Of a DNA stretch of 64,000 nucleotides, positions 751 through 63,971 are shown piece after piece (the first letter of the stretch is position 1; each line of letters starts with the position of its first letter). Both the position numbers and the translations under genes were made by a program. Under the pieces are notes generated by a model. That model worked only from the letters and a program-made list of their open reading frames with translations, had not been told where the DNA came from and did no database searches. The stretch lies in assembly GCF_003669015.1 (NCBI RefSeq), contig NZ_CP033069.1, positions 248,001-312,000 on the forward strand, given 5' to 3'. The stretch is from Acidovorax sp. 1608163. Its GTDB lineage: Bacteria > Pseudomonadota > Gammaproteobacteria > Burkholderiales > Burkholderiaceae_C.

Positions 751-805
751 TTGCTATTGAATGTGTAGCTGCTAGCGCTTGTGGAGACTGCGCTAGAGGC
801 TGAAA
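751..805. repeat. Dispersed palindromic repeat, copy a
   Basis: The stretch carries the core GTAGCTGCTAGCGCTT followed by a short loop and GCGCTAGAGGC, matching six other places in this window (4917, 10061, 15268, 43754, 51431, 63931). The two arms CTAGCGC / GCGCTAG can pair. It sits in the gap between the DUF1579 gene and the membrane protein gene. The remaining part of that gap (806-1021) shows nothing I can name. Confidence 0.75.
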
Positions 806-1021
806 TGGATTGCATGTTGGGTGGGTGCCGGCTACCGTGGGTTAGGGCCGCACCTGCGCAAACCGCAGGCAAGTTGGTACCCACAGCGCCTTAGGGCACA
901 CGGCGGCTGGAGGGGCGGGTTCAGGCCTGGGCGGCTGAAATACCTTGTAACGCAACCCTTGGGGTTTGGCCGGAGGCAGCGCCAGATAATCCTTCGGCCT
1001 TGTCCTCCTCTGCTCCCATCC

Positions 1022-2377
1022 ATGCCGACTGAAAACGCCCTAGCGCCTGTGCTGCCCACCGATCTCTTTGAAGAGCGAAACCGCCAGAGCGAAGAGATGC
1101 TGGTGTATCGCCACGCTACATCACATGAAGTGCCCGTCGTCAGCCTGCGCGTGCAATGGCTGGTGTTGGGCGGGATGGCTGCGGTGGCGACGGCTTTTGT
1201 GGCGTGGACTCTGCTGCGCACGCTTCCCAACTTGGCCCACATGGGCTGGGAAGGCTGGCGGGCCATGGGGGCAGCCCTCATGCAGAAAATGTCGGAAAGA
1301 GAAACACCATGGCTGTTTTTGATCTACGTGATTGGGGCCATGGTTTTCTTGGGGGCGCGTTGGCTGTGGAATCGCCACCTCCGGCTCTACATCACCCCGC
1401 AAGGCTTGCGGCAAGAGCACCGACTGCCGCTGGGCTTGCACCACCTGTTTGGGCAGAACTGGCAGATTGACTGGAGTGAGGTGCGCGGTATCACTGCGCG
1501 TCGCATGGATGTTTGGAATGGGAACGTCAGCCCGATGGCGCGGACCGTGATCGTGCTGCAACTGGGCAGAGGTCGCGAACGTGTGCTGCAGCCCGCGTTC
1601 TGGTTTCGGCCTAGCGATCCACCACGCCCGCAGCTCAAGTCCATACGCAGCTCTTGGTTGTTGTCGCAGCCCTGGGCGGGGGCCGACAACCAAACCCGAT
1701 TGGCGCGAGCGTTTGCAGAGTTGCGTTTGGTGCGCGCGCTGCAGCAATACGCACCCCTGCCGGACGTCGCCTTGCCGTGGCCCGGCATACCAAACTCCAT
1801 CGGCACCGATCTGAATCGCCAGCCTGAGGTGTTGATGCTCTTTGGGGCAGCCGCCGTGGTGTTTGTCACGGGCCTGGCTTTGATGGTGGCGGCCCCGAAT
1901 GTCCACCTGCACGCTACGCCCAGCTGGGGTGCGCGCGCCGCTTGGGCCCTGGGGACCTTGGCCCTGTGGGCGGCGGCGTGGCCAGCGTGGCGGCGCTATC
2001 GGGCCTCGCACCCAGTTCCAGCGCCCACGCAGCAGCCTGCCGTGCCCTTGTCCAAGCCCGCCCTGGCCTTTGCTGCGGTGCTGTGGATGGCAGCGCTGGC
2101 CTTTGTCATCGAGCCCTTGCTGGTCCACTCCGCCTTGCTGGGCCGCGCCGATGCGTGGCACACCCACCGCTTTGCTTTGGGGGGTGGCTGGGCCAAACCC
2201 ATCGGCCTCGAGGCGGCCCACATCCCGCCCATCGAGTTGCCCGGCGCGCAAAGCCGGCTGGCCTGGATCAAACCCGGCAGCGAGGCCGACCTGGCCACGG
2301 TGGAGGGCCACTGGGGGCTGTGGATTTTCAACGACGCGCCTTTGCGCGCTTTGGCCACGCAGCAGGGCGTGCGCTGA
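1022..2377 (+). CDS. Hypothetical membrane protein
   Basis: A 451-residue protein, started at ATG 1022; the frame is open further upstream but that part looks non-coding and overlaps a repeat. It has about four hydrophobic segments: residues 45-65, 98-112, near 290-310 with another close behind, and 360-380. Between the second and third lies a soluble stretch of about 150 residues with PH-domain-like spacing (LRLYITPQGLRQEHR, then IDWSEVRGITARRMDVWNG), seen in bacterial membrane proteins of the YdbT/PH type. That resemblance is weak. A second soluble domain follows the last helix. I do not recognise a family and assign no function. Confidence 0.75.
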   Translation: MPTENALAPVLPTDLFEERNRQSEEMLVYRHATSHEVPVVSLRVQWLVLGGMAAVATAFVAWTLLRTLPNLAHMGWEGWRAMGAALMQKMSERETPWLFLIYVIGAMVFLGARWLWNRHLRLYITPQGLRQEHRLPLGLHHLFGQNWQIDWSEVRGITARRMDVWNGNVSPMARTVIVLQLGRGRERVLQPAFWFRPSDPPRPQLKSIRSSWLLSQPWAGADNQTRLARAFAELRLVRALQQYAPLPDVALPWPGIPNSIGTDLNRQPEVLMLFGAAAVVFVTGLALMVAAPNVHLHATPSWGARAAWALGTLALWAAAWPAWRRYRASHPVPAPTQQPAVPLSKPALAFAAVLWMAALAFVIEPLLVHSALLGRADAWHTHRFALGGGWAKPIGLEAAHIPPIELPGAQSRLAWIKPGSEADLATVEGHWGLWIFNDAPLRALATQQGVR

Positions 2378-2521
2378 TCGCGCAGAGGGCTGATGGCAGT
2401 GGGCACTGTCCTGTTCGCAGGGCGCATTGTTCCAGCGGCCGCACTAGTGCTGGGGCGCGCGGGCCCCATATTCACCCTGCGTGCCGCCCGACAGGGGCGG
2501 CGCATTTCATAAGGAGCCAGC

Positions 2522-3595
2522 ATGTCGTCCGCCCCCACTGCCCCATCCACTGCCGCCAGCAGCCCCGTGCTGCAAACCCAGCCCCTGGGCCCGCTGTGGC
2601 CCACGATGGACCCGTTTCTCTTCTGCGCCTACCACGACGACGCCTACCCCGCTGGCGACGGCGCGTTTGCGCCCGCCGTGTCGCTGGAAGGGCGCCAGAT
2701 GGGCAGCGACTTCAGCCGCAAGGACGGCTGGAGCATGTACCACGGCGACACCGTGCCCGGCTTCCCGGGCCACCCGCACCGGGGCTTTGAGACGGTGACG
2801 CTGGTGCGCAAGGGGCTCATCGACCATGCCGACTCGCTGGGCGCGGCCGCGCGTTTTGGCGGGGGCGATGTGCAGTGGGTTACGGCGGGCAAGGGCATCC
2901 AGCACTCTGAGATGTTCCCGCTGCTCAACGCCACCGAGCCCAATCCGCTCGAACTCTTCCAGATCTGGCTGAACCTGCCCGCGAAGAACAAGATGGTGGA
3001 GCCGCACTTCACCATGCTCTGGAACGAGCGCATCCCGCGCCTGCAACACCGTGACGCTGAAGGCCGCCTGACCACCGTCACCGTGGTGGCTGGTGCATTG
3101 CCAGGCGCCGATGCCCCGTTGAGCCCGCCGCCCGAATCCTGGGCCTCGCAGCCCGATGCGGACGTGGCCATCTGGACGCTGCACCTGGAGCCCGGCGCAC
3201 GCTGGACGTTGCCCGCCGCCACCGGCCAGGGCACGCGCCGGATGCTGTACTACTTTGTGGGCAACGGCCTCACCGTGGGCGCGCAGGCCCTGGCTGGCCA
3301 CGCCGCACTGGAGATCGTGGCCGGGCAAGCCTGGGAGCTGGTCAACACCGGCTCCACGGCGGTGGAATGCCTGCTGCTGCAAGGCCGCCCCATTGGCGAG
3401 CCCGTGGCGCAGTACGGCCCGTTTGTGATGAACACGCAGCAGGAAATCATGCAGGCCATGCAGGACTACCGCCGCACCCAGTTTGGCGGCTGGCCCTGGC
3501 CCGAGAGCGACCCGGTGCACGGGCCTGAGGCGCGCCGGTTTGCGCGCTACCCGGGTCAGTCTGAGGACGAGGTGCCCGGCGCCGCCGCAGGCTAA
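2522..3595 (+). CDS. Pirin family protein
   Basis: A 357-residue bicupin. AAGGAG lies 6 nt before ATG 2522. The N-terminal cupin has the pirin metal ligands His84 and His86 in GHPHRGFETVT and His128 and Glu130 in GKGIQHSE. The C-terminal cupin starts near residue 210. Bacterial pirins bind Fe or another metal in the cytosol; some have quercetinase activity and some modulate enzymes, so the exact role is open. It is about 40 residues longer than many pirins, mainly through an N-terminal Ala/Pro/Ser-rich lead and a C-terminal tail that includes PWPESDPVHG. Confidence 0.92.
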   Translation: MSSAPTAPSTAASSPVLQTQPLGPLWPTMDPFLFCAYHDDAYPAGDGAFAPAVSLEGRQMGSDFSRKDGWSMYHGDTVPGFPGHPHRGFETVTLVRKGLIDHADSLGAAARFGGGDVQWVTAGKGIQHSEMFPLLNATEPNPLELFQIWLNLPAKNKMVEPHFTMLWNERIPRLQHRDAEGRLTTVTVVAGALPGADAPLSPPPESWASQPDADVAIWTLHLEPGARWTLPAATGQGTRRMLYYFVGNGLTVGAQALAGHAALEIVAGQAWELVNTGSTAVECLLLQGRPIGEPVAQYGPFVMNTQQEIMQAMQDYRRTQFGGWPWPESDPVHGPEARRFARYPGQSEDEVPGAAAG

Positions 3596-3741
3596 GCCAC
3601 GCTTACCCGCTGAGCCTCGCTCTGGTGGGTGGGGCGGGGCGCTGGTGGGGGCGCTGCGTCGTGGACAATGCGCGCTTTGATTTCACTGGTGTGTGGCCCC
3701 CGGCTGCACACCCCCGCAACCGAGCCCAAGGCGCACACCGC

Positions 3742-4215
3742 ATGACGACCATCACCAAAGACTCCGCAGTCACCATCACCTACAAGGTGACCACGCCCCA
3801 AGGCAAGCCGCTCGACTCTGGCAGCCTGGCCTATCTGCACGGTGGCTATGAAAACATCTTCCCCAAGGTCGAAGCCGCGCTGGAAGGTCAGGCCGTGGGT
3901 TTCACCGCCAACATCGACCTGGCCGTGGAAGACGCCTTTGGCGCCCGCGATGAAAGCCTGGTGCGCACCATCCCCAAGAGCGAGTTCCCGCCCGGCGTGA
4001 AGGTGGGCGGCCAACTGCAGGGCGTGGGCGCTGACGGCCAGCCCGCCGTGTTCAACGTGGTCAAGATCAAAGGCCCTGAAGTGCACCTGGACGGCAACCA
4101 CCCCTTGGCGGGCGAAGCGCTCAAGTTCAGCTGCAAGGTCACGGCCGTGCGCGCTGCCAGCGCCGAAGAAATCGCCCACCGCCACGTGCACGGCGCCCAC
4201 GGGCACCAGCACTGA
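3742..4215 (+). CDS. slyD: FKBP-type peptidyl-prolyl cis-trans isomerase, SlyD type
   Basis: A 157-residue cytosolic isomerase and chaperone that catalyses proline isomerisation and binds metal ions. The start is ATG 3742, giving MTTITKDSAV; an upstream extension lacks coding character. The FKBP half-domains flank an IF (insert-in-flap) domain around residues 65-125, with ALEGQAVG and EDAFGARDESL as family landmarks. The His-rich end (HRHVHGAHGHQH) fits the nickel-binding tail of SlyD, although it is short and lacks the Cys-rich part of the E. coli protein. The next gene begins 16 bp downstream, suggesting co-transcription. Confidence 0.93.
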   Translation: MTTITKDSAVTITYKVTTPQGKPLDSGSLAYLHGGYENIFPKVEAALEGQAVGFTANIDLAVEDAFGARDESLVRTIPKSEFPPGVKVGGQLQGVGADGQPAVFNVVKIKGPEVHLDGNHPLAGEALKFSCKVTAVRAASAEEIAHRHVHGAHGHQH

Positions 4216-4230
4216 TCGGGCCGCCCCGCC

Positions 4231-4581
4231 GTGCAAGGGTTATTGGACCGCCTGGGCTATGCGCTGATCGGCCTGTTCTTTGGCGCCCTCATCGGCGTGG
4301 CGGGTTGGTGGCTGTATGGCGTGGCGCATTCCGTGCGCTACCGAGGCCCGGGTATGGACCCGCTGCTGCGCCACTGGGTGCAGTACGGCGGCGCCATTTT
4401 TGGCGTGCTGGGCTTCCTCCTGCGCGAGCGTGCGGCCGATGTGGTGGCCGACACGCTGTCTGCGATGCTCCACTTCGAATTCAACCCCGCGCCCGGCCGT
4501 GTGGCGTCTGCCGTGCTGGGCGGCGTGGTGTTGGTGATTGCGGTGGCGGCGATCTGGTTTACCAGCCCGATCAAGGGCTAG
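4231..4581 (+). CDS. Hypothetical small membrane protein
   Basis: 116 residues starting at GTG 4231; the only in-frame ATG (4354) would cut off the first membrane helix. Three hydrophobic segments are visible, about residues 8-28, 50-63 and 90-110. No motif of known function is seen. It starts 16 bp after slyD and ends 3 bp before the next reading frame, so the three probably share a transcript. The start is uncertain because no clear ribosome binding site precedes it. Confidence 0.65.
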   Translation: MQGLLDRLGYALIGLFFGALIGVAGWWLYGVAHSVRYRGPGMDPLLRHWVQYGGAIFGVLGFLLRERAADVVADTLSAMLHFEFNPAPGRVASAVLGGVVLVIAVAAIWFTSPIKG

Positions 4582-4584
4582 CCC

Positions 4585-4908
4585 ATGGCTGGCGCTGCCG
4601 ACCCAGCACTGATCCTCTACCTCCAAAGTGTGGAGGCCGAGGCCAAGCTCGACATCTGCGCAAGCCCATCGGTCGGCATGGGCTCAGATTTTGGGCGTGC
4701 GTTCCAGGCTTGGCGAGCCGCCCATGCAGCCGCACTGGCCGAGGGCGCTGCGATAGTTGCAGAGCGGGGCATGACCGGTGGGACCCGCCCCAGCATTCAG
4801 TCCTTTGCGCGCATGAATGCGCTGACATTGGCGTCCTTGCCCCTCGATGATCGGCAGCGCCGTTGTAACGAGCTTCTGGCATTTTTCAGTGGCAAAGAGG
4901 TCCGATAG
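4585..4908 (+). CDS. Hypothetical protein
   Basis: 107 residues from ATG 4585, three bases after the previous stop. The sequence is Ala-rich and mostly helical, without membrane segment or signal peptide. I do not recognise a family. Tight spacing behind the previous gene supports translation, but codon bias alone does not settle it. Confidence 0.5.
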   Translation: MAGAADPALILYLQSVEAEAKLDICASPSVGMGSDFGRAFQAWRAAHAAALAEGAAIVAERGMTGGTRPSIQSFARMNALTLASLPLDDRQRRCNELLAFFSGKEVR

Positions 4909-4916
4909 ATTGCTCA

Positions 4917-4963
4917 TCTATTGATAGCTGCTGGCGCTTGATTGGTAAGCGTTTTCGGCCAAA
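4917..4963. repeat. Dispersed palindromic repeat, copy b
   Basis: TTGATAGCTGCTGGCGCTTGA, then TAAGCG and CGGCCAAA: the same order of blocks as copy c (10061), with a few changes in the right arm. It lies between convergent genes (stop at 4908 on plus, stop at 4975 on minus), where its hairpin could end transcription. Confidence 0.7.
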
Positions 4964-4974
4964 TGGCATAAAAC

Positions 4975-5895
4975 TCAGCGCCCCTTTCGGGTCAAGCCTT
5001 TGCCCTGTAGCACCGGCTCGGCCGCCAGCCGCTCGCGCGCAAATTCCACAAACGCCCGCACCTTGGCGGGGGCGCGCCGCCCGGCGGGGTAGACGATGTG
5101 CACGGGCACCGGCGGGGGCTCAAACCCGGCCAGCACAATGCGCAGCCGCCCCGCGCGCAGGCTGGCTGCCGCCTGGTAGGCCAGGCAGCGCGTGAGGCCC
5201 AGGCCCGCCTCGGCGGCGGCAATGTCCACCTCGTTCGCATTGCTGATCCACGCGATCTGCGGCTGACCCACCAGCCCGTCGCCAAACTTCCAGGGCGCAG
5301 CGGCGCGGGCATCGAACGAGAACGCAATCGCCCGGTGCTGCGCCAGGTCCTGCGGGTGCTGCGGCTCGCCGTGGCGTGCCAGGTAGTCGGGCGAGGCCAC
5401 CACCAGCCGCCGCAGCACGCCCACGGGCAGGGCGGTGAGGCCCGAATCCGGCAGGTGGGCAATGCGCAAGGCCACATCCATGTCTTCTTCCAGCAGGTGC
5501 ACCAGCCGGTTCACAAACAGTGTGCGCGCCTGCACGCGCGGCTGGGCCTGCAAAAAGCCCAACACGATGGGCGCCACATGCTGGATGCCGAACATCTGCG
5601 GCGCGGTGATGGACAGCAGCCCCTGCGGCTGCACCTGCGCGCCGCTGGCGGTCTGCTCGGCCTCGGCCAAGTCGCTCAGGATGGGGCGGCAGTCGGCCAG
5701 AAAGCGCTCGCCGGCCTCCGTCAGCCGCACCCAACGCGTGCTGCGCTGAAACAGCAGCACACCGAGCCGCGCCTCCAGCGCCGCAATGGCGCGCGTGACG
5801 GCCGCTGCCGAGCAGCCCAGCCGCCGCCCCGCCACGGCAAAGCCGCCCGCATCGGCCACGGTCACAAAGCAGCGCAGGGTGTCGAGGTGGTCCAT
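4975..5895 (-). CDS. LysR family transcriptional regulator
   Basis: 306 residues, started at the ATG whose complement is at 5893-5895 (MDHLDTLRCFVTVADAGGF). Residues 1-60 are the LysR winged helix-turn-helix (AAVTRAIAALEARLGVLLFQR), and the rest is the two-lobe effector-binding domain of the CrgA/DsdC-like subgroup common next to GST or oxidoreductase genes. It is divergent from the GST gene at 6005, with 109 bp between, and may control that gene; LysR proteins usually act on the divergent neighbour. The effector cannot be told from sequence. Confidence 0.92.
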   Translation of the reverse strand: MDHLDTLRCFVTVADAGGFAVAGRRLGCSAAAVTRAIAALEARLGVLLFQRSTRWVRLTEAGERFLADCRPILSDLAEAEQTASGAQVQPQGLLSITAPQMFGIQHVAPIVLGFLQAQPRVQARTLFVNRLVHLLEEDMDVALRIAHLPDSGLTALPVGVLRRLVVASPDYLARHGEPQHPQDLAQHRAIAFSFDARAAAPWKFGDGLVGQPQIAWISNANEVDIAAAEAGLGLTRCLAYQAAASLRAGRLRIVLAGFEPPPVPVHIVYPAGRRAPAKVRAFVEFARERLAAEPVLQGKGLTRKGR

Positions 5896-6004
5896 TGTTG
5901 CGTCTCTCGAAATTCTGAAAGCCGCACTATCGCTATTCACGCCGCCAAGTGCAATAGATAAGGTCGAGTCCTTCACACAATCTGTTTTGACAAGGACGCA
6001 CCCC

Positions 6005-6670
6005 ATGGCCGCTACCCACCTTCCTGCCGCCCCGCTCACGCTGCACCGCACGGCCATTTCTGGCCACTGCCATCGTGTGGAGCTGCTGCTGTCCCTGCTC
6101 GGCCTGCCGCATCGGCTGGTGGAGGTGAACCTGCTGGAGGGCGAGCACCAATTGCCCGCGCACCGTGCACTCAACCCGCTGGGCCAGGTGCCCGTGCTGG
6201 TGGATGGCGACGTGGTGCTGAGCGACAGCAACGCCATCCTGGTCTACCTAGTGCAGCGCTACGCGCCCGGCAGTGCATGGATGCCGCAAGACCCCGTGGG
6301 CCAGGCGCAGCTGCAGCGCTGGCTCAGCCTGGCGGCAGGCTTTCTAGCGGCGGGCATTGGTGGGCCGCGCTTTGCGACGTTGACGGGCAAGCCCATCAAC
6401 GAGGTCGCCCAGGCCCAAGGCCGACGGCTGCTGGACTTCATGGAAGCCGAGCTGCGGGGGCGCGACTGGCTGCTGGGCGGCGCCACGCCCAGCCTGGCCG
6501 ATGTGGCCATGGTCAGCTACACCTCGCAGGCCCATCTGGCAGGCCTGCCGCTGCCCACCGCTTACCCGCGCATCGCCGCCTGGGTGGCGCGCGTGCAGGC
6601 GCTGCCCGGCTATGTGCCGTTGCTGGACCACCTCAGCGGTGTGACTCCCCAGCCTGCGGAGGCCGCATGA
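6005..6670 (+). CDS. Glutathione S-transferase family protein
   Basis: 221 residues from ATG 6005. The N-terminal thioredoxin-fold domain (about residues 8-84) includes ISGHCHRVELLLSLLGL at the glutathione site, the cis-proline context LGQVPVLVDG, and the SDSNAILVYL helix (Glu replaced by Asp-Ser-Asn). The C-terminal helical domain has LLGGATPSLADVAM, the N-capping motif, and ends in YPRIAAWVARVQALPGY. Members conjugate or reduce with glutathione in the cytosol. Its stop overlaps the ATG of the next gene (ATGA), so the two are translationally coupled. The divergent LysR gene is the likely regulator. Confidence 0.92.
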   Translation: MAATHLPAAPLTLHRTAISGHCHRVELLLSLLGLPHRLVEVNLLEGEHQLPAHRALNPLGQVPVLVDGDVVLSDSNAILVYLVQRYAPGSAWMPQDPVGQAQLQRWLSLAAGFLAAGIGGPRFATLTGKPINEVAQAQGRRLLDFMEAELRGRDWLLGGATPSLADVAMVSYTSQAHLAGLPLPTAYPRIAAWVARVQALPGYVPLLDHLSGVTPQPAEAA

Positions 6671-7722: not shown

Positions 7723-7732
7723 ACCGTTCACG

Positions 7733-7774
7733 CTGAGCCTGTCGAAGCGCCGCGCAAGGCTTCGACAGGCTCAG
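7733..7774. repeat. Perfect 16-bp inverted repeat (CTGAGCCTGTCGAAG type), possible bidirectional terminator
   Basis: CTGAGCCTGTCGAAGC at 7733-7748 and its exact reverse complement at 7759-7774 surround a 10-nt loop. This is the dispersed 'CGTTCA..CTGAGC..TGTCGAAG' palindrome frequent in proteobacteria. It stands between two convergent gene ends (7722 plus, 7808 minus), a common location. A diverged half copy is at 27577-27600. Confidence 0.85.
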
Positions 7775-9991: not shown

Positions 9992-10060
9992 TGGATAAAT
10001 TTACAGTATTTGGAGGCTCGGCACCAGCCCTGGGGTAAAAGTCCCGGGGGCGTGATGGTT

Positions 10061-10111
10061 CAAAATTGATAGCTGCCAGCGCTTTATGGAAAGGCGCTAG
10101 AGGCCAAAAAA
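10061..10111. repeat. Dispersed palindromic repeat, copy c
   Basis: CAAAATTGATAGCTGCCAGCG, a short loop, then AGGCGCTAGAGGCCAAAAAA. This is the best preserved copy and was used as the reference for the family. It lies upstream of the radical SAM gene (minus strand) and downstream of the ligB-like gene, immediately beside a second repeat type at 10121. Confidence 0.8.
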
Positions 10112-10120
10112 GTGCTAAAT

Positions 10121-10207
10121 CGTAGGTCGGGTTAGCGCAGCGTAACCCGACACCATCGCTCCCGCCGGTCCCTGTCGGGTTACGCCCATTGTGCTAACCC
10201 GACCTAC
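10121..10207. repeat. Inverted repeat GTAGGTCGGGTTAGC...GCTAACCCGACCTAC
   Basis: GTAGGTCGGGTTAGC at the left end and its reverse complement GCTAACCCGACCTAC at the right end border about 57 bp that itself contains a second nested pair (CGTAACCCGAC / GTCGGGTTACG). This is a known style of dispersed palindrome in proteobacteria. It is only seen once here. Along with copy c it fills the gap between the ligB-like and radical SAM genes. Confidence 0.8.
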
Positions 10208-13927: not shown

Positions 13928-14041
13928 AGCGGGGTGGTACTGAAGGTGCGCTGGCGAGGGGGCGCACAGGCCAGCCACGGTTGTAGCACCGCGCTGCCCG
14001 TGGCGGTGTAGGAGAGCGTCGGCTTCCGTTGCCGCATCTGA

Positions 14042-14310
14042 GAACCTGTTCAAAGTCTTTTGGGAGATTGCATTGGAGTGCAATCGGGATGAGTGGATGG
14101 CTCGGATGCGCCGCATGGGCTCGTGCCCATGCAAGCAGCCGGGGCGTCCAATCGCCCGATTTCACTCCAACCCTGCGGGTAAGTGGCTTGCCGGGCGGTC
14201 TGCGTTGTTGCAACGCTTGCCAATAGCACGGGCTATTGGCTGCGCGCTGCGCCTAGCAGCCCATCCCGGCGAGCCACTTGTGCAACTCCAAAAAAACTTT
14301 GAACAGGTTC
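14042..14310. mobile_element. MITE of 269 bp with IS5-type ends (same as the adjacent IS)
   Basis: The left end GAACCTGTTCAAAGTCTTTT (from 14042) and the right end AAAACTTTGAACAGGTTC (to 14310) are near-perfect inverted repeats and differ by only a few bases from the ends of the IS that follows. No open frame of note is inside. The interior holds further pairs, AAGTGGCTTGCCGGG with CCCGGCGAGCCACTT, and the hairpin CCAATAGCACGGGCTATTGG. A bordering TGA on the left and TTA on the right fit the TNA target rule but are not identical. It is therefore probably mobilised by the neighbouring transposase. Confidence 0.8.
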
Positions 14311-14388
14311 TTAGAACCTGTTCAAAATCTTTTCCCGATGAGGTACTGATAGCAGGCTGACTGTGACTGAAGCTAAGCTGCGTGCTCC

Positions 14389-14763: not shown

Positions 14764-15181
14764 CGCGGGCAAGAAAGTCTCGGGAATCAAGCGCCATATT
14801 GCAGTGGACACGCTAGGGCTGCCGCACGCCGTTGCGGTGACGACGGCAGAGGTGACGGACCGCAAAGGGGCTTTGCAGGCACTGCAGCGCTGCAAACCTG
14901 CTTTGAGCCGGGTGCAAGCCCTGTTGTGTGACAGCGGCTATGTGGGCCGGCCGTTTGCCCAGGGCGTCCAAGACATTCTGGGCGGACACGTCGTGGCACA
15001 GATCGCCAAGCGCAGTGAACTGCATACGTTCAAGGTGATGCCCCAGCGTTGGGTGGTGGAGCGCAGCTTTGCCTGGTTGGAGAAGAACAGGCGGTTGTGG
15101 AAGAACTGCGAGAGGTTGCTGAACACCAGCTTGCAGTTCGTCCATCTGGCATTCTTGGCTCTGCTGCTCAAAAGATCTTGA
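14705..15181 (+). CDS. IS5-family transposase, downstream frame (OrfB)
   Basis: 158 residues shown from the codon at 14705; family similarity begins already at about 14648 just behind the A7 run. It supplies the DDE catalytic residues: Asp in LIVDAQSVKNTE, Asp in LCDSGYVG, and Glu in VVERSFAWLEKNRR, which also has the IS5 Y/R-E-K type signature. Frame order relative to OrfA is +1 (or -2). No ribosome binding site favours independent translation, so a fused product is more likely. Confidence 0.85.
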   Translation: MIVDAQSVKNTETAGSKGYDAGKKVSGIKRHIAVDTLGLPHAVAVTTAEVTDRKGALQALQRCKPALSRVQALLCDSGYVGRPFAQGVQDILGGHVVAQIAKRSELHTFKVMPQRWVVERSFAWLEKNRRLWKNCERLLNTSLQFVHLAFLALLLKRS

Positions 15182-15267
15182 ACAGGTTCTTAGGCCCGGC
15201 CTACCAGCCCGTGGGGCGATGGACGTGGCGCAGCACCCGCAGGCCCAGCAGGGCCTGGTTAGGCATG

Positions 15268-15320
15268 AAAATGGCCTCTAGCGCTTGTTGAATAAGCGCT
15301 AGCAGCTATATAAAAAATAG
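15268..15320. repeat. Dispersed palindromic repeat, copy d (inverted orientation)
   Basis: AAAATGGCCTCTAGCGCTTGT, then GAATAAGCGCTAGCAGCTATA: the reverse complement order of copy c. The arms CTAGCGCTT / AAGCGCTAG form a hairpin just beyond the 3' end of the SUMT gene (minus strand), where it may end transcription from that gene. Confidence 0.8.
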
Positions 15321-15332
15321 CGTTTGACCCGA

Positions 15333-42781: not shown

Positions 42782-43744
42782 ATGACCACCAAAACCATCA
42801 AAGTCGCCCTGGCGGGCGCTGGCGCCTTCGGTATCAAGCATCTGGACGGCATCCAAAACATCGACGGCGTGGAAGTCGTCTCGCTGATCAGTCGCGATCT
42901 GGAAAAGACCCGTGAGGTGGCCGCCAAGTACGGCATTGGCCACGTCACCACCGACCTGGCTGACAGCCTGGCGCTGCCCGAGGTGGACGCCGTCATCCTG
43001 TGCACCCCCACGCAAATGCACGCCGAGCAGACCATCGCCTGCCTGAAGGCGGGCAAGCATGTGCAGGTCGAGATTCCGCTGGCCGATAGCTTGAAGGGCG
43101 CCGAAGAAGTCGTGGCCCTGCAAAAGCAGACGGGCCTGGTGGCGATGTGCGGCCACACCCGTCGCTTCAACCCCAGCCACCAGTTTGTGCACCACAAGAT
43201 TCAGAAGGGCGAGTTCAACATCCAGCAGATGGATGTGCAGACCTACTTCTTCCGCCGTACCAACACCAACGCGCTGGGCCAGGCCCGCAGCTGGACGGAC
43301 CACCTGCTGTGGCACCACGCTGCCCACACCGTGGACCTGTTCGCCTACCAGGCCAACAGCCCCATCGTGCAGGCCAACGCCATGCAGGGCCCCATCCACC
43401 CCACGCTGGGCATTGCCATGGACATGAGCATCCAGCTCAAGGCCGCCAATGGCGCCATCTGCACGCTCTCCTTGAGCTTCAACAACGATGGCCCGCTGGG
43501 CACGTACTTCCGCTACATCGGTGACACGGCCACATACCTGGCGCGCTACGACGACCTGTACAACGGCAAGGACGAGAAGATCGACGTGAGCCAGGTGGAT
43601 GTGTCGATGAACGGCATCGAGCTGCAAGACCGCGAGTTCTTCGCCGCCATCAAGGAAGGCCGCGAGCCCAACGCCAGCGTGGGCCGGGTGTTTGCCTGCT
43701 ACCAGGTCTTGCACCAGCTGGAGCAGCAGCTCAACGCCGCTTGA
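42782..43744 (+). CDS. 4-Carboxy-2-hydroxymuconate-6-semialdehyde dehydrogenase (LigC type)
   Basis: 320 residues. An NAD(P)-binding Rossmann fold at the start (VALAGAGAFGIKHLDGI) and a GFO/IDH/MocA-like C-terminal domain, with VEIPLADSLKGAEEVVAL and MCGHTRRFNPSHQFVHHKI. It oxidises the cyclic hemiacetal of the ring-cleavage product to 2-pyrone-4,6-dicarboxylate. It ends the operon; repeat copy e, a strong hairpin, follows 10 bp later. Confidence 0.94.
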   Translation: MTTKTIKVALAGAGAFGIKHLDGIQNIDGVEVVSLISRDLEKTREVAAKYGIGHVTTDLADSLALPEVDAVILCTPTQMHAEQTIACLKAGKHVQVEIPLADSLKGAEEVVALQKQTGLVAMCGHTRRFNPSHQFVHHKIQKGEFNIQQMDVQTYFFRRTNTNALGQARSWTDHLLWHHAAHTVDLFAYQANSPIVQANAMQGPIHPTLGIAMDMSIQLKAANGAICTLSLSFNNDGPLGTYFRYIGDTATYLARYDDLYNGKDEKIDVSQVDVSMNGIELQDREFFAAIKEGREPNASVGRVFACYQVLHQLEQQLNAA

Positions 43745-43753
43745 TTTCAAGTT

Positions 43754-43809
43754 AGATAGGCTGCTAGCGCTTATTGAATAAGCGCTAGAAGCTATATATT
43801 TGATAGCAA
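43754..43809. repeat. Dispersed palindromic repeat, copy e; possible bidirectional terminator
   Basis: The centre CTAGCGCTTATT-G-AATAAGCGCTAG is a perfect 12-bp inverted repeat with a one-base loop and is bordered by AT-rich blocks (GCTATATATTTGATAG). It stands between the convergent pmd operon and the flavin hydroxylase gene. Its shape and place suit a two-way terminator. Confidence 0.8.
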
Positions 43810-43854
43810 ATGCAGGTGGGCTGCATGCCGCCAGCTCCGCTGCCAGGGTTTCTT

Positions 43855-51170: not shown

Positions 51171-51193
51171 TCCCCATCGCTTTGGAGTCCCTT

Positions 51194-51970
51194 TTGTCGC
51201 CCCAGTTTTCCTCTCTCTCCGGCGCTCACCAGGTGCCCGCCATGCTGCTGGCCGCTGGCCGTGGCGAGCGCATGCGCCCGCTGACCGATACCTGCCCCAA
51301 GCCCTTGCTGGTGGTGCAGGGCCAGCCGCTGCTGCAGTGGCACTTGCAGGCTCTGGCGCATGCCGGGGTGCGCCAGGCAGTGATCAACACGGCGTGGCTG
51401 GGCGAGCAGATCAGCGACCGATTTTTAAGTCATTTTGGCCTCCAGGGCGCACTGGATAAGCGCGAGCAGCTATCAATTTCATACTCGCACGAGGGCGTGG
51501 ACTTTGGCGGGGCGCTGGAGACGGCGGGCGGCATTGCCCGTGCGCTGCCGCAATTGGGGCCGGTGTTCTGGCTGGCGGCGGGCGATGTGTTTGCGCCCGA
51601 CTTCACGTTTGAAGCCACTGCCGTGCAGGCCTTTGAGGCCAGCAACCACCTGGCCCACCTGTGGCTGGTGCCCAACCCTGGGCACCATCTGCGTGGTGAC
51701 TTTGGCCTCTCGCCCGAAGGCCTGGCGTTGAACCTGCCTGCAGACGACCCCACCCCCCGGTTCACCTACAGCACCATCGCCTTGCTGCGCGCCGAGTTGT
51801 TTGGGCTGCCGTGGTGTGACATCCCGCCGGGCAACCCAGGTGGCGTGGCCCAGCCCTTGGCGCCCTTGTTGCGCCGCGCCATGGACCTCGGCCGCGTCAG
51901 CGCATCGCTCTACACCGGCCGGTGGACCGATGTGGGCACGCCCGAGCGTTTGGCCCAGCTTCAGCGTTGA
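51194..51970 (+). CDS. Sugar-1-phosphate nucleotidyltransferase (MurU-like)
   Basis: 258 residues if TTG 51194 (GGAG 6 nt upstream) is the start; GTG 51233 and ATG 51242 are also in frame, and the domain begins there. The nucleotide-binding signature is MLLAAGRGERMRPLTDTCPK; WLAAGDVF carries a metal-site Asp and GRWTDVGTPERL is the closing motif. MurU-type enzymes make UDP-MurNAc in cell-wall recycling. Residues of about 79-96 (SHFGLQGALDKREQLSISY) are coded by a dispersed repeat; the regular family segment there is replaced or interrupted. Confidence 0.88.
   Translation: MSPQFSSLSGAHQVPAMLLAAGRGERMRPLTDTCPKPLLVVQGQPLLQWHLQALAHAGVRQAVINTAWLGEQISDRFLSHFGLQGALDKREQLSISYSHEGVDFGGALETAGGIARALPQLGPVFWLAAGDVFAPDFTFEATAVQAFEASNHLAHLWLVPNPGHHLRGDFGLSPEGLALNLPADDPTPRFTYSTIALLRAELFGLPWCDIPPGNPGGVAQPLAPLLRRAMDLGRVSASLYTGRWTDVGTPERLAQLQR
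51431..51483. repeat. Dispersed palindromic repeat, copy f, inside a coding sequence
   Basis: CATTTTGGCCTCCAGGGCGC, then GGATAAGCGCGAGCAGCTATC and AATTTCATA: the reverse-complement order of copy c with most positions kept. It lies entirely in the nucleotidyltransferase gene and keeps the frame open. The palindrome arms are partly eroded (CAGGGCGC versus GCGCGAGC), as might be expected under protein-coding selection. Confidence 0.8.
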
Positions 51971-57234: not shown

Positions 57235-57375
57235 GCCCGCACTGTAGGAACGGGGCCTTAACAGCTTCTTAAAGTGCAAGAAAATGCAAATGGCAGTGGG
57301 TGGAGGGGCTCCCGCTGCCAAAGTTTGGCGTTGGGGCGCGCCGGGGCCGACGTGGTGTGCAGCGACAATGCCCCC

Positions 57376-59471: not shown

Positions 59472-59480
59472 AATCACAGA

Positions 59481-59500
59481 GTTACCAAGCGGTTACCAAG
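59481..59500 (+). promoter_or_regulatory. Direct repeat GTTACCAAG(C) x2 upstream of fba
   Basis: GTTACCAAGCGGTTACCAAG: two copies of GTTACCAAG, 11 bp apart start to start (one helix turn), about 85 bp before the fba start and just after the kinase stop. Spacing by a helix turn is typical of activator half-sites. The binding protein is unknown. Confidence 0.45.
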
Positions 59501-59584
59501 CATTTGCCAATGGCCGCCTGAAAAATTGCCAGCCCGTGAAGGGCCCTGGCGCCCCCTCACCCACCCACAACGGACCCAACGACC

Positions 59585-60649
59585 ATGCCTCTCGTCTCCA
59601 TGCGCGAACTGCTCGACCATGCCGCTATCAACGGCTATGGCATCCCTGCATTCAATGTGAACAACCTGGAGCAAGTCCAGGCCGTGATGGCGGCCGCAGA
59701 CGAGGTGGGGGCCCCGGTCATCCTGCAAGCCAGCGCAGGCGCCCGCAAGTACGCAGGCGAGCCCTTCATCAAGCACCTGATCCAGGCTGCGGTCGAGGCT
59801 TTTCCGCACATCCCGCTGGTGATGCACCAGGACCATGGCACTTCGCCCAAGATCTGCCAGGGCGCGATTGACCTGGGCTTTGGCTCCGTGATGATGGACG
59901 GCTCGCTGATGGAAGACGGCAAGACGCCTTCGTCCTTCGATTACAACGTGGATGTGACCCGCAAGGTGGTGGAGCTGGCACACCAGTACGGCGTTACCGT
60001 CGAGGGCGAGCTGGGTTGCCTGGGCAACCTGGAAACCGGCGATGCGGGTGAAGAAGACGGCATTGGCGCCGAAGGCAAGCTCGACCACAGCCAGATGCTG
60101 ACCGACCCTGAGGAAGCCGCCCAGTTCGTCAAGGCCACGCAACTGGACGCACTGGCGATTGCCATCGGCACCAGCCACGGCGCGTACAAGTTCAGCCGTC
60201 CGCCCACAGGCGACATCCTGGCCATCAGCCGCGTCAAGGAAATCCACGCCCGCATCCCCAACACCCACTTGGTGATGCACGGCTCGTCCTCCGTGCCGCA
60301 AGAGCTGCTGGCCATCATCAACCAGTACGGCGGCAAGATGAAGGAAACCTACGGCGTGCCCGTGGCCGAGATCCAGGAAGCCATCAAGCACGGCGTGCGC
60401 AAGATCAATATCGACACCGACATCCGCCTGGCCATGACCGGCGCGGTGCGCAAGTTCCTGGCCGAGAACCCTGAAAAGTTCGATGCCCGCGAATGGCTCA
60501 AGCCCGCCCGCGAAGCCGCCAAGCTGGTGTGCAAGCAGCGCTACCTGGAGTTCGGCTGCGAAGGCCAGGGCTCCAAGATCAAGGGCCTGAGCCTGCAGAC
60601 CATTGCCGCGCAATACGCTTCGGGCGCTCTGGCCCAGGTGGTGAACTGA
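59585..60649 (+). CDS. fba: Fructose-bisphosphate aldolase, class II
   Basis: 354 residues from ATG 59585. Zn and substrate motifs: [39 protein letters not shown], and [30 protein letters not shown] closes the site. The class IIA Calvin-cycle/glycolytic subtype length is usual (about 345-360). It cleaves or forms fructose 1,6-bisphosphate. A clear terminator follows at 60707. Confidence 0.97.
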
Positions 60650-60706
60650 TGGGGACACGCGGGTGAGGCGCCGGGGCGCTACCCGCAGTGGTCTGCCCGT
60701 CCGCAC

Positions 60707-60739
60707 AGCCCGCAAGCACCTGGTGCTTTCGGGCTTTTT
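60707..60739 (+). terminator. Rho-independent terminator of fba
   Basis: AGCCCGCAAGCACC and GGTGCTTTCGGGCT pair with one mismatch around a one-base spacer, followed by TTTT. It stands 57 bp after the fba stop. Confidence 0.9.
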
Positions 60740-60751
60740 CTTTGGGGGCCA

Positions 60752-60932
60752 GGAGCCTGTCGGACTTGGAAATCGTCGGCTGCAAACCGACCACAGCGGT
60801 CCATTTTTTACCGCCTTTTTGCCCCATAGCTCGGCTATGGGGCTGCAAATTCGGCAAAAACTGTCCTCGCTGGGGCCGCTTTTGTCGAAACCGTTGGTTT
60901 TCGCTGTCGACGCTCCAAGCCCGACAGGCTCC
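60752..60932. mobile_element. MITE-like 181-bp inverted-repeat element
   Basis: GGAGCCTGTCGGACTTGGA at the left end and, inverted, GGAGCCTGTCGGGCTTGGA at the right differ at one of 19 positions. The centre holds a perfect hairpin GCCCCATAGC-TCG-GCTATGGGGC (60821-60843). No protein-coding frame is convincing; a long frame on the minus strand through it is a composition artefact. It has the shape of a non-autonomous transposable or palindromic dispersed element. Together with the fba terminator it fills most of the 420-bp gap to pntAA. Confidence 0.75.
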
Positions 60933-61020
60933 TTGCGTTCATTGGCTGACACAACGCAGCAAAGTCGCCGCCAAGTGCGGTAAACCCCCCATGCCGCCAA
61001 AACAACTTCATGTAAGCTGC

Positions 61021-61038
61021 CGTTCAGAAATCTGAACG
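61021..61038. promoter_or_regulatory. Palindrome CGTTCAGA-AA-TCTGAACG before pntAA
   Basis: A perfect 8-bp inverted repeat with a two-base centre, 31 bp before the pntAA start. It looks like a dimeric regulator site. The likely promoter lies in the segment 60940-61020, which holds no gene. Confidence 0.55.
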
Positions 61039-61069
61039 ACCACCGGGTTCCCCAACGTGAGGAGATGAC

Positions 61070-62185
61070 ATGTTCATAGGAGTGCCAGCAGAGACGGTGG
61101 CCGGGGAAACCCGGGTCGCGGCAACGCCCGAGACCGTCAAAAAGCTCACCGCCCTGGGGCACAGCCTGCGTGTGCAGTCGGGGGCGGGCCTGGCCGCCAG
61201 CGTGACCGATGCGGCCTATGAGGCCGCAGGGGCCGAGATCACCGACGCCGCAGGCGCCTGGGGGGCCCCTTTGATGCTCAAGGTGCGCTGCCCGTCAGAG
61301 GCCGAAGCCCCCTGGCTGCGCAGCGGCACCACCCTGGTGGGCATGCTCAACCCCTTTGATGCCGCCGGTCTGCAGCGGCTGGCGGCGGCGGGTGTCACGG
61401 CCTACGCCCTGGAGGCCGCGCCACGCACCACCCGTGCCCAGAGCATGGACGTGCTCTCTTCCCAGGCCAACATTGCGGGCTACAAGGCCGTGATGATCGC
61501 GGCCGACCGCTACCAGCGCTTTTTCCCCATGCTCATGACGGCCGCCGGTACGGTGAAAGCCGCGCGCGTGGTGGTGCTGGGTGTGGGCGTGGCGGGCCTG
61601 CAGGCCATTGCCACGGCCAAGCGGCTGGGCGCGGTGATCGAGGCGTCGGACGTGCGTCCCAGCGTCAAGGAACAGGTGGAATCTCTGGGCGCCAAGTTCA
61701 TCGATGTGCCCTACGAAACGGCCGAAGAAAAAGAGGCCGCCGAAGGCGTGAGCGGCTATGCCCGGCCCATGCCCCCCAGCTGGCTGGAGCGGCAAAAGAT
61801 GGAAGTCGCCAAGCGCGTGGCGCAGGCCGATGTGGTCATCACCACGGCGCTCATTCCAGGCCGCCCGGCGCCCGTGCTGGTCACGCCCGAGATGGTGCAG
61901 GCCATGAAGGCTGGCTCGGTGATCGTGGACCTGGCCGCGCCGCAGGGCGGCAACTGCCCGCTGACCGAGCCCGGCAGCACCGTGGTCAAGCACGGCGTGA
62001 CGCTGGTGGGCGAGACCAACCTGCCCGCCCTGGTCGCGGCCGATGCGTCGTCGCTGTACGCTCGCAACGTTCTGGATTTTTTGAAACTCATCATCAACAA
62101 GGAAGGTGCCCTGCATGTGGACATGCAGGACGACATCGTGGCCGCCTGCCTGATGGCCCACGAAGGCACCCTGAAACGCGCATGA
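61070..62185 (+). CDS. pntAA: NAD(P) transhydrogenase subunit alpha part 1 (NAD-binding domain I)
   Basis: 371 residues, with GAGGAG 6-11 nt before ATG 61070. The domain I begins MFIGVPAETVAGETRVAATPE; the NAD fold is VVVLGVGVAGLQAIATAKRLGA; DVRPSVKEQVESLGAKF and TALIPGRPAPVLVTPEMV are family landmarks. It is the split form: the membrane part is coded separately at 63642. The proton-translocating enzyme makes NADPH from NADH at the inner membrane. Two other genes separate it from pntAB. Confidence 0.95.
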   Translation: MFIGVPAETVAGETRVAATPETVKKLTALGHSLRVQSGAGLAASVTDAAYEAAGAEITDAAGAWGAPLMLKVRCPSEAEAPWLRSGTTLVGMLNPFDAAGLQRLAAAGVTAYALEAAPRTTRAQSMDVLSSQANIAGYKAVMIAADRYQRFFPMLMTAAGTVKAARVVVLGVGVAGLQAIATAKRLGAVIEASDVRPSVKEQVESLGAKFIDVPYETAEEKEAAEGVSGYARPMPPSWLERQKMEVAKRVAQADVVITTALIPGRPAPVLVTPEMVQAMKAGSVIVDLAAPQGGNCPLTEPGSTVVKHGVTLVGETNLPALVAADASSLYARNVLDFLKLIINKEGALHVDMQDDIVAACLMAHEGTLKRA

Positions 62186-62988
62186 CCCTTTCGACACGCA
62201 TGACCTTATTTACCCGGCTGACCCGTTTGAACACTGCCTCCCTTTTTTCTGAGCCCGCCCGTGCTGTGGGCGCGCTGCGCCAGTGGGGCCTGCGTGCCGT
62301 GGTGGCGGCGGGCGTGCTGGCCACGGTGGCCTGTGCCCCCGTCAAGCCTGCAGCCACCCCTGAATACCCCGTAGGCCGTGCGCGGCTGGCCCTGCCGGAA
62401 GGCACCTGGGAAGACCTGGGCCAAAGCACCGTGGCCCTGCCCGTGCGCCCCGCCCCGGGCACCATCCCCTTGCAGACCCGTGCCGTGGGGCTGCGCGGTG
62501 CCGACAAGGAACTGCTGGCGGTGGCGCTGGTGCAGACCAACAGCACCAACTACCCGCGTGAGCAAACGCTGTGGACTGGCACCTGCCCGCGCCAGGACGG
62601 TGTGTGGGTGGAAGACGCCGCCCAGGCCAGCCCGGTGCGTGTGGACTGCCTGCGCCTCAAGCGCTGGGCCAACAACCGCGACTGGCTGGACAAGAACCAG
62701 CCCGAGTTGGTGCGCTGGATGGCCGACCACAAGGTGGCCTTCACGCGCCCGGTGTCGCACCTCAACTACCGCTACGCCACCCAAGGCGGCGCGTATGTGG
62801 AAGTGAACATCGTCGCCGACCAGCGCCTGGTGCGCCCCAAGACCATCAACAACGAAGAGTTTTTGCGCGCTGGCTACCCCGCGCAAGACTGGGCCCAGAA
62901 AGTGGCGCAGGCCGCACGCCAGAGCGTCAGCATGATGGACGGGTACCTGGCCCTGCCAGCGTTCCCGATTCCCGAGTCGAAGTTGTAG
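62182..62988 (+). CDS. Probable lipoprotein inside the pnt operon
   Basis: 268 residues starting in the ATGA overlap with pntAA; ATG 62200 is an alternative, and MTLSTR/MTLFTR is a small direct duplication at the start. A hydrophobic helix (about 37-50) ends in ATVACAPV, a possible lipobox with the anchored Cys51. The exported part has RLALPEGTWEDLGQSTVALP and ALVQTNSTNYPREQTLWTGTCP. No recognised family. It may be an accessory lipoprotein that happens to share the operon. Confidence 0.8.
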   Translation: MTLSTRMTLFTRLTRLNTASLFSEPARAVGALRQWGLRAVVAAGVLATVACAPVKPAATPEYPVGRARLALPEGTWEDLGQSTVALPVRPAPGTIPLQTRAVGLRGADKELLAVALVQTNSTNYPREQTLWTGTCPRQDGVWVEDAAQASPVRVDCLRLKRWANNRDWLDKNQPELVRWMADHKVAFTRPVSHLNYRYATQGGAYVEVNIVADQRLVRPKTINNEEFLRAGYPAQDWAQKVAQAARQSVSMMDGYLALPAFPIPESKL

Positions 62989-63066
62989 GCGTGCCGGGGT
63001 GCTGCCCTGGTGGGCAGCGGTGTGGACCACAAGAAAACAAACAATCAAAAAGCGGAGGGTTGGAAC

Positions 63067-63618
63067 GTGGGAGTTATTTTGCAGATCCTGGGGTTGGTCA
63101 TCACCTTCACCATGGCCATGGAGGCCTTGCGCCGCTTTGGCATTGATGTGGGGTGGCTCAACCCGCTGACTTTTTTCCACCGCCGGGCATGGCGCAAAAA
63201 GGTGAGCACGCCGCCCCTGTATGCCTTGGACCACCCTGTAGACGTGGTGGCCGTGTTGGCCTTGGCCACGGTGCAGACCACGGGTGCCATCACCACGGCC
63301 CAGAAGGCGGGTGTGCAGTCCTTGCTGCAGCAGCACCTGCAAATGAACGAGTCCGATGCCGCCAATTTATGGGTGGCCAGCGCCCACTTGCTGCGCAGCC
63401 GGGCGCTGGCGCTGAGCGAATTGCCGGATGTGCTGGCCCGCAGTGCGGACAAGTTCACCGACTACCACGTGCAAACCCTGCAGGCTGTGATGCGCGCCGC
63501 CGCCGACATTGAGCCCCCCATCAACGACGCCCAGCGAAAGCTGCTGGACGCCGTGGATGCTTACTTTGCCAAAAGGAAAGCGGCCTCAAGCCCCTGGTCT
63601 TCGGCCAATCCCGGTTAA
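63067..63618 (+). CDS. Membrane-anchored protein of unknown function inside the pnt operon
   Basis: 183 residues from GTG 63067, preceded by GGAGGG at 8 nt; an earlier in-frame ATG at 63010 has no such site. One hydrophobic helix at residues 3-18 (GVILQILGLVITFTMAMEAL) anchors a mostly helical domain (AQKAGVQSLLQQHLQMNES, ADIEPPINDAQRKLLDAVDAYF) with a spacing that recalls TerB-like domains. That resemblance is weak. pntAB starts 23 bp later. Confidence 0.75.
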   Translation: MGVILQILGLVITFTMAMEALRRFGIDVGWLNPLTFFHRRAWRKKVSTPPLYALDHPVDVVAVLALATVQTTGAITTAQKAGVQSLLQQHLQMNESDAANLWVASAHLLRSRALALSELPDVLARSADKFTDYHVQTLQAVMRAAADIEPPINDAQRKLLDAVDAYFAKRKAASSPWSSANPG

Positions 63619-63641
63619 CCCCGTCCCCACAGGAGAACCCC

Positions 63642-63971
63642 ATGGATGCTGTCTCGCCCACGTTGATCAACCTCATCATCTTTGTGCTGGCCATCTATGT
63701 GGGCTACCACGTGGTGTGGACGGTGACGCCTGCCCTGCACACCCCGCTCATGGCGGTGACCAATGCCATCTCGGCCATCGTCATCGTCGGGGCCATGCTG
63801 GCGGCGGCGCTCACCGAGACGCCGCTGGGCAAAACCATGGGGGTGCTGGCCGTGGCACTGGCGGCGGTGAATGTGTTTGGCGGCTTCCTGGTCACCCGGC
63901 GCATGCTGGAGATGTTCAAGAAAAAAGAGCGTAAAGCGCCCGTGGATAAAGCGCAAGAAGCTATCAAATAA
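63642..63971 (+). CDS. pntAB: NAD(P) transhydrogenase subunit alpha part 2 (membrane)
   Basis: 109 residues. Three to four membrane helices with INLIIFVLAIYVGYHVVWTV, TPLMAVTNAISAIVIVGAM and VNVFGGFLVTRRMLEMF are the PntA transmembrane part. It joins PntAA and PntB as the proton channel. The last 14 residues (KAPVDKAQEAIK) overlap repeat copy g, so the tail has probably been replaced by repeat sequence. Most homologues end soon after the MLEMFKKK stretch. Confidence 0.93.
   Translation: MDAVSPTLINLIIFVLAIYVGYHVVWTVTPALHTPLMAVTNAISAIVIVGAMLAAALTETPLGKTMGVLAVALAAVNVFGGFLVTRRMLEMFKKKERKAPVDKAQEAIK
63931..63970. repeat. Dispersed palindromic repeat, copy g, at the end of pntAB
   Basis: GTAAAGCGCCCGTGGATAAA, then GCGCAAGAAGCTATCAAATA matches the right part of copies c/f (GGATAAGCGC-GAGCAGCTATCAAATT). 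It codes the last residues and the TAA stop of pntAB. It is less complete than the others, so the assignment is less sure. Confidence 0.6.

Follow-up and report, generated by a model that had tools for sequence, protein, structure and literature searches.

A motif of about 48 nt repeated hundreds of times in Comamonadaceae genomes, and its possible role as a DNA uptake signal

Uptake signals in DNA are known from two bacterial families, the Neisseriaceae with their DNA uptake sequences (DUS) and the Pasteurellaceae with their uptake signal sequences (USS); DUS dialects are reportedly the subject of a published study (PMC3630211). Among other short palindromic repeats, Rickettsia palindromic elements (RPE) add peptide segments to proteins. 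The DUS pattern, in the part of the literature drawn on here, includes a preference for the core genome, placement at permissive sites and in terminators, and a lack of copies in recently acquired genes (PMC2397512). The present study concerns a motif of about 48 nt with seven copies in a 64,000-nt window (the whole stretch of DNA analyzed, C1:248001-312000 of the single-contig 5.05 Mb genome of Acidovorax sp. 1608163). By analogy, an uptake function like that of the Neisseriaceae and Pasteurellaceae signals is the likeliest one for the motif, a tentative assignment that comes close to an even chance of being right.

A fragment of this motif has been in print since 2017, with no function assigned to it there. 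The relevant section of a survey listed GCTTAT(N)5AAGCG in Acidovorax ebreus, with 114 copies (5 in genes), and ATAGCT(N)22CAAAAG in Polaromonas naphthalenivorans, with 125 copies (18 in genes), as potential novel motifs without a function, mostly intergenic and near gene ends, and often between convergent genes (PMC5217627). A search of the open-access literature, with subscription papers outside its scope, found the family described neither as a single element nor, in Comamonadaceae, as an uptake sequence.

The consensus, TTTGCTATTAAATTAATAGCTGCTAGCGCTTATTTAATAAGCGCTAGAGGCCAATTTT, comprises a near-palindrome, GCTAT-N7-ATAGC, and a second one, GCGC-N11-GCGC, followed by GGC and an A/T tract. 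Written in full, the motif is GCTAT-N7-ATAGCTG-NNN-GCGC-N11-GCGC-N4-GGC with flanking T/A tracts, and it specifies 23 bases across 48 nt (59-64 bits). The core, TAGCTGCTAGCGCTT, is found 569 times in the genome at no more than one mismatch (262 forward, 307 reverse; the reversed pattern, 8) and the 48-nt pattern 462 times (209 forward, 253 reverse; control, 0); the genome carries about 550 copies. A position-weight matrix (PWM), refined on the copies from 41 stretches of the genome (864 kb), in-gene copies included, recovered 95 copies, 94 of which score above 30 bits, and zero copies at 1 bit or more from the reversed sequence of the same 864 kb; as the matrix is in the dialect of this genome, copies in other dialects are undercounted by it. 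The 95 sampled copies represent 92 distinct ones, the two contig ends being duplicates of each other, and contig-end duplicates aside the maximum pairwise identity is 84.3%, which speaks against a recent burst. The strands are unequally used, with 33 vs 62 copies in the sample (p=0.004) and 209 vs 253 by pattern (p=0.045). A 16-bit match in thymidylate kinase may be due to chance. The duplicated contig ends themselves (C1:1-20000, L113, and C1:5020001-5040000, L152) match over 17.4 kb at 99.1%, which may reflect either a circle that was not closed or a genuine duplication.

The motif is widely but unevenly spread within the family. At no more than three mismatches the 48-nt pattern has matches in 58 of 150 family genomes and at least ten in 36 of the 150, with a maximum of 617. 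Motif-rich genomes include A. temperans (429), Comamonadaceae ALPHA2B (386), A. radicis (377), Diaphorobacter (341), Rhodoferax TS-BS-61-7 (280), and A. delafieldii (263), while A. soli (2), P. citrulli (2), P. konjaci (4), Delftia (1), Variovorax (7 and 1), Curvibacter (0), and Malikia (0) are motif-poor. Outside the family, in an order-level draw of 250 genomes, 10 of the 243 from other families were matched, with at most 2 copies each. The register of the motif is kept in other genera and its filling differs: the dialect of A. delafieldii reads GCGCATGATTCACTAGCGCTTGCGGC, with a weaker hairpin, and that of Xenophilus has a GC-rich second half. Plasmid and phage records queried with one copy, in searches of low sensitivity, gave 2 plasmid and 0 phage matches. 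When 5-kb windows are ranked by GC, the bottom fifth contains 6 of 93 copies (p=2e-4), and the 8 windows below 58% GC contain zero. Judged by GC and by this plasmid/phage proxy only, the copies are placed in the core genome and scarce in acquired DNA. One of the only two plasmid records matched carries its copy within cobN (NZ_CP049911.1:107821-107874).

Genes were called with an in-house codon-score script and no published caller, and by these calls the sample of 95 copies divides into 64 between genes, 7 touching a gene end, and 24 inside genes; two of the three pairs duplicated at the contig ends were assigned as genic in one stretch and non-genic in the other, and the one in an M48 peptidase is doubtful because the called gene overlaps moaC. 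Intergenic copies lie a median of 23.5 nt from the neighboring stop codon vs 107 nt from the start, bearing out an earlier note on the window, which had placed them often at gene 3' ends. Copies are also more frequent in convergent gaps (20 of 78) than in other gaps (49 of 426; p=0.002). In-gene copies occur in four of the six possible frames: antisense phase 0 (10 copies), sense phase 1 (8), sense phase 0 (4), and antisense phase 2 (2). Their host genes, many of which encode core enzymes, were named from Pfam and PDB matches (Hsp70, for example, as HscA-like) and include mutL, ileS, glmU, moaC, nadE, Hsp70, and genes for a FolM-like reductase, an HrpA-type helicase, a TrmJ-like SpoU methylase, and a PBP1C-like protein. 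At C1:494322 (L026, position 1501), the motif apparently lies over the signal peptide of a small protein, MKKIAACACLISATALFGTASA, as read from the letters.

It is in these genes that overlay of the motif on existing codons can be set against insertion. GlmU and MutL were compared in 30 family genomes, 17 with at least 77 copies and 13 with at most 7. A motif match of at least 20 bits is present at the GlmU site in 12 of the 17 motif-rich genomes and at the MutL site in 15 of them, and at neither site in any of the 13 motif-poor genomes. In GlmU, the first half of the motif encodes GHGAxEVEAA, a peptide that A. soli also has, with GC-rich codons, and that is present in full or nearly so in Delftia, P. 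citrulli, Variovorax, and Malikia, again with GC-rich codons. From anchor to anchor this stretch measures 32 (10 sequences) or 36 (2) residues in the 12 motif-bearing sequences, a median of 30 in 18 other family sequences, and mostly 25 in 30 other-family genomes. These lengths, a gain of 2 codons over motif-poor relatives and of 7 over other families, suggest that about 7 codons were gained in most cases, where the motif spans at least 16. In MutL, the motif lies over the linker residues WxQxAIxF, which are partly common to many motif-poor relatives, with Delftia, A. soli, P. citrulli, and Variovorax having them whole or nearly so, in other codons; the rows were aligned within a variable linker, and equality of length is approximate. 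A second mutL copy lies near codon 112 of the open frame in genome G125 (L246) and in Rhodoferax (L256).

Two further sites, A and B, in a gene near that for a MurU-like protein, were compared in six rows only. At site A, the stretch has 33 residues in five of the six rows, two of these five with the motif, and 37 in the sixth; at site B, it has 33 residues in three motif-bearing rows vs 19 and 21, and 40 in one. Alignment with PDB entries gave length differences of 0 or 1 for the FolM-like reductase, +3 or +1 for NadE, +2 or +6 for MoaC, and +7 for GlmU, with nine fewer residues in IleRS and a linker about 31 longer in TrmJ. On the sites examined in this way, about eight of the 24, overlay is common and full insertion exceptional: coding copies arose over existing sequence in MutL, at site A, and largely in GlmU, with site B and TrmJ as the exceptions. 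Pure in-frame insertion was rejected for GlmU, MutL, and site A, given similar native residues at near-equal length. The earlier note had seen in the coding copies a source of new peptide segments. The refuting condition that the note itself had set went mostly against insertion, with motif-poor relatives having similar GlmU and MutL residues at nearly the same length, and what survives of the proposal is some lengthening in GlmU, at site B, and in the TrmJ linker, with MutL and site A about equal.

That the motif is maintained as DNA can be seen in the MurU-like gene. Among the matches listed for its protein, that of A. temperans is closest (86%). The motif is present at the same place and in the same orientation in 33 of 80 named loci, from Acidovorax to Rhodoferax and Polaromonas. 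LSIS or LLIS occurs in 42 sequences, counting that of the window and one nearly identical pair. There, CTA is used in 40 of 42, TCA for the first serine in 24 of 38, ATT in 42 of 42, and TCA for the second serine in 40 of 42, in genomes so GC-rich that CTA and TCA are rare codons. Mean GC content at third codon positions is 0.12 over those four columns and 0.86 elsewhere (lowest other column 0.29). The LSIS/LLIS codons are frozen across several genera, so that the DNA itself is conserved here and not the peptide alone. In Variovorax, most of these codons are kept in a nearly motif-free genome. The segment does not look like extra peptide when P. citrulli and P. konjaci are compared, with anchor spans of 32 and 33 vs 33 in the window, and would do so only by the shorter spans of Delftia (27) and Xenophilus azovorans (24). 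For the PntAB-like protein (30 genomes searched, 27 matched, comparison on 14 rows), relatives lacking the motif have tails of differing sequence and mostly similar length.

Within the window (Table 1), all seven copies reported earlier, which form one family, were recovered by the position-weight scan with scores of 56-90 bits, and the scan found no eighth copy there; the core has 12 window matches at no more than three mismatches vs 1.5 expected. Copy f lies in frame and wholly inside the MurU-like gene, where its peptide is FGLQGALDKREQLSISY, and copy g takes in the final codons of the PntAB-like gene together with its stop, both as the earlier note had described. The stop codon is 14-91 nt off the core for the intergenic copies a, b, d, and e, and copy c is 111 nt from the stop of its right-hand, minus-strand neighbor. 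The orthologous place of copy d in A. temperans holds a copy in the same orientation; that of copy e has an opposite-orientation copy nearby. A second inverted-repeat family, around GAACCTGTTCAAAGTC, is found at 14037-14066 and 14286-14315 of the window, with a relative at 15169-15200 and arms that are 90% complementary.

Table 1. Motif copies and their two host genes, in window coordinates.
Feature	Position	Strand	Context or length	Score or matches
Copy a	748..817	+	intergenic	PWM 63 bits
Copy b	4907..4976	+	between convergent genes	PWM 56 bits
Copy c	10052..10121	+	intergenic	PWM 67 bits
Copy d	15257..15326	-	between convergent genes	PWM 86 bits
Copy e	43743..43812	-	between convergent genes	PWM 90 bits
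Copy f	51421..51490	-	inside MurU-like gene, antisense phase 2	PWM 60 bits
Copy g	63912..63981	-	over PntAB-like tail, stop, and GGAGC before next start	PWM 60 bits
MurU-like nucleotidyltransferase gene	51182..51970	+	262 aa	PF00483; top PDB matches 4y7t, 8hhd
PntAB-like gene	63642..63971	+	109 aa	PF12769

The positions of copies persist between species. In a comparison with 400 kb of A. temperans, in which 31 of 44 copies could be scored and 13 could not, 26 of the 31 have a same-orientation copy at the orthologous place; these represent 25 distinct partners, since two copies were paired to one A. temperans copy. The remaining five places, that of copy e among them, have no such copy. Identity between paired copies is 96-100% at motif positions, reaching 100% at TAGC, at the first GC of GCGC, and at the CT of GCTAT, and 42-58% in the loops. 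Variable positions match at 0.62 vs 0.43 in random pairs, conserved positions at 0.91 vs 0.83, and four-fold sites at 0.75. Ten of the 26 paired copies beat 97% of random pairs on variable positions and look as though they were kept by descent, while the other 16 are not clearly separable from random pairs. Unlike variable positions in places that are kept suggest that some intergenic places retain a copy while its free positions change beyond recognition.

Taken together, these data are consistent with a genome-wide DNA recognition signal of Comamonadaceae, about 48 nt long and conserved at the DNA level at hundreds of positions on the chromosome. Between genes, copies stand just beyond stop codons, where the hairpin may help to end transcription; within genes, they would be built largely on existing codons. 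The receptor of a type IV pilus transformation machine may prefer motif-bearing DNA, and biased uptake followed by recombination would then maintain matches in the core genome and spread them. Of this account, an uptake role, its receptor, and the drive process are inferred from the analogy with DUS and USS. Comamonadaceae would on this model have a third, independent uptake signal, of about 48 nt and with dialects, that overwrote codons at hundreds of places, mutL, glmU, and ileS included, and was lost repeatedly from sister lineages, leaving codon fossils behind in them; this fuller account is possible, with somewhat less than an even chance of holding in all its parts.

Published work on transformation in the family lends some plausibility to an uptake role. 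In the parts of the study drawn on here, Davidson et al. (2014) report that A. temperans, A. facilis, and Verminephrobacter are naturally transformable, that A. temperans is transformed by own-species DNA only, and that transformation of Verminephrobacter needs type IV pili; transformation is described there as selective in A. temperans and Verminephrobacter, and those parts name no motif (PMC4212676). The dialect difference between A. temperans and A. delafieldii seems to fit own-species transformation.

Several observations weigh against an uptake signal that spread by drive. At about 48 nt and 59-64 bits, the motif far exceeds known uptake sequences, which measure 9-12 nt. The same study could not transform A. 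delafieldii, which has 263 copies here, under the conditions it used (PMC4212676), and poor recombination of diverged DNA can also explain the species barrier of A. temperans. Scores in the Acidovorax sp. 1608163 genome are bimodal with nearly no intermediates, which stepwise drive does not obviously predict. Scanned in the dialect of this genome, the motif-rich P. valerianellae and two Xenophilus-like genomes have no GlmU match, and the motif-rich genomes G003 (15 bits) and G125 (9 bits) are weak in GlmU, while a motif-poor Comamonas, NTP6, has a 44-bit match elsewhere in MutL. Site B looks inserted, and the longer TrmJ linker likewise reads as an insertion. Finally, the presence of comEC in motif-rich genomes says little, the gene being near universal in the family (144 of 150; 36 of 36 genomes with at least ten copies and 108 of the 114 others), and for this reason comEC was uninformative as a link between competence and the motif. 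In G003, comEC is split over three frames (G003:C1:1836740-1837544, L324), and the copies are weaker (40.8 bits) than those of two relatives; this is a single case (n=1) in which the frameshifts may be assembly errors, and G004, with an intact comEC, also has few close matches.

The best of the alternatives, though an unlikely one, is that a chromosome-organizing or segregation protein binds the motif, which selection would keep at each site with no link to uptake. Conservation in both orientations, persistent positions, and dialects would fit any site-specific DNA-binding protein, as would scarcity in the plasmid and phage records, and two near-palindromes would suit a dimeric binder. Per-site selection on hundreds of 48-nt sites, many of them over core-gene codons, would however be costly, and near absence from close relatives such as A. 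soli and P. citrulli suggests that the function is dispensable.

More doubtful is an old mobile family, similar to repetitive extragenic palindromic (REP) elements or miniature inverted-repeat transposable elements, whose copies inserted, some of them in frame, and then decayed or were kept. The many copies, the hairpin shape, the 3'-end location, and the few sites that look lengthened, including the 7 codons that GlmU has over other families, are what such a family would leave. The native residues and near-equal lengths in GlmU, MutL, and site A, the rare MurU codons frozen over several genera, and the lack of near-identical copies in the sample beyond the contig-end duplicates all run counter to it, and the transposase evidence points the same way. 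The genome has two Y1_Tnp genes, the first with no copy inside 1.5 kb and the second lying about 1.2 kb from a copy, a proximity no greater than average density gives. Across the 150 family genomes, a profile search found a Y1_Tnp match in 112, motif-rich and motif-free alike, and none in G141 (272 copies, 99% complete draft), G095 (35 copies, 100% complete draft), or G040 (37 copies, 74% complete), the first two being read by elimination. Mobilization by a REP-associated tyrosine transposase (RAYT) was rejected on these grounds, with flanks unlinked and motif-rich genomes lacking a match, and no cognate RAYT gene flanked by the repeat was encountered in the Acidovorax sp. 1608163 genome. Nor are the copies strictly extragenic, with 24 of 95 inside genes, and the residue gain over the full length of the element that RPE would bring is not seen in GlmU (+2 or +7 for a motif of at least 16 codons), MutL, or site A (the last two about equal), with site B an apparent exception. 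The earlier suggestion of REP-like entry by RAYT as the origin of new peptides thus failed, there being no linked transposase and mostly native residues under the motif. One of the Y1_Tnp genes (C1:815730, L111; a frame of about 230-300 aa) recurs singly in many of the 112 genomes, with or without the repeat, and may be a domesticated transposase.

Folding was also considered as the basis of conservation. A search of the window against Rfam at the gathering threshold gave no match, and a structural RNA was discarded on that result. Column by column, arm pairing is no better than in shuffled columns, except for two weak pairs in the Acidovorax sp. 1608163 genome. Intergenic copies nonetheless gain 0.9-1.8 kcal in folding energy over column-shuffled ones (z -3.1 in this genome and -4.7 in A. 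temperans), while in-gene copies fold weakly better or not better (z -2.1 and 0.1). In A. delafieldii, 24 of 263 copies gave -14.4 vs -14.8 kcal for column shuffles, and the consensus is less hairpin-like. A T run of at least four follows GGCC in 41 of 94 copies. A pure hairpin function was rejected, as column pairs are mostly without covariation, with a secondary terminator role possible from the intergenic folding energies; the element is taken to be a motif in DNA sequence whose hairpin plays a secondary part between genes. That it is instead a family of transcription terminators sharing sequence through descent or conversion is very improbable, as proximity to stops, enrichment in convergent gaps, and the better folding of intergenic copies would all follow, but a quarter of the copies lie within genes and in both orientations, terminators need no common sequence, the A. 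delafieldii copies tested have no extra folding, and covariation by column is mostly absent.

If the uptake role is correct, a third family with a long, bipartite motif and dialects would show what the cell surface can recognize, could explain why A. temperans is transformed by its own species only, and would provide a new system for asking whether drive or selection spreads uptake signals. Whatever the binder, hundreds of persistent sites, some of them frozen into the rare codons of conserved genes, amount to a chromosome-wide recognition system, and the losses of the motif among close relatives are natural controls.

Set beside known systems, the motif resembles a signal for self-DNA recognition more than it does a mobile element. 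The pairs of the 2017 survey correspond to it in part: GCTTAT(N)5AAGCG of A. ebreus fits the second hairpin exactly, while of the Polaromonas pair only ATAGCT can be placed with certainty. They were listed as separate pairs, and that section mentions neither coding overlay nor dialects (PMC5217627). Like REP elements with their RAYT, the motif is short, abundant, palindromic, and mostly intergenic; unlike them, it has no linked RAYT, a quarter of its copies are intragenic, none in the sample are near-identical, and most of its places are common to the two species compared. RPE are likewise palindromic repeats lying in frame in many proteins, whereas the peptide under the present motif mostly pre-exists. 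With DUS and USS it shares hundreds of copies on both strands, between genes and in core genes, inverted repeats at 3' ends, permissive core sites, scarcity in foreign DNA, and dialects. It differs from them in belonging to another bacterial family and in its two near-palindromes across about 48 nt rather than 9-12 nt. Given that length and a reading made by analogy, the motif is not classed as a DUS; it would stand beside DUS and USS as a candidate signal of the same kind.

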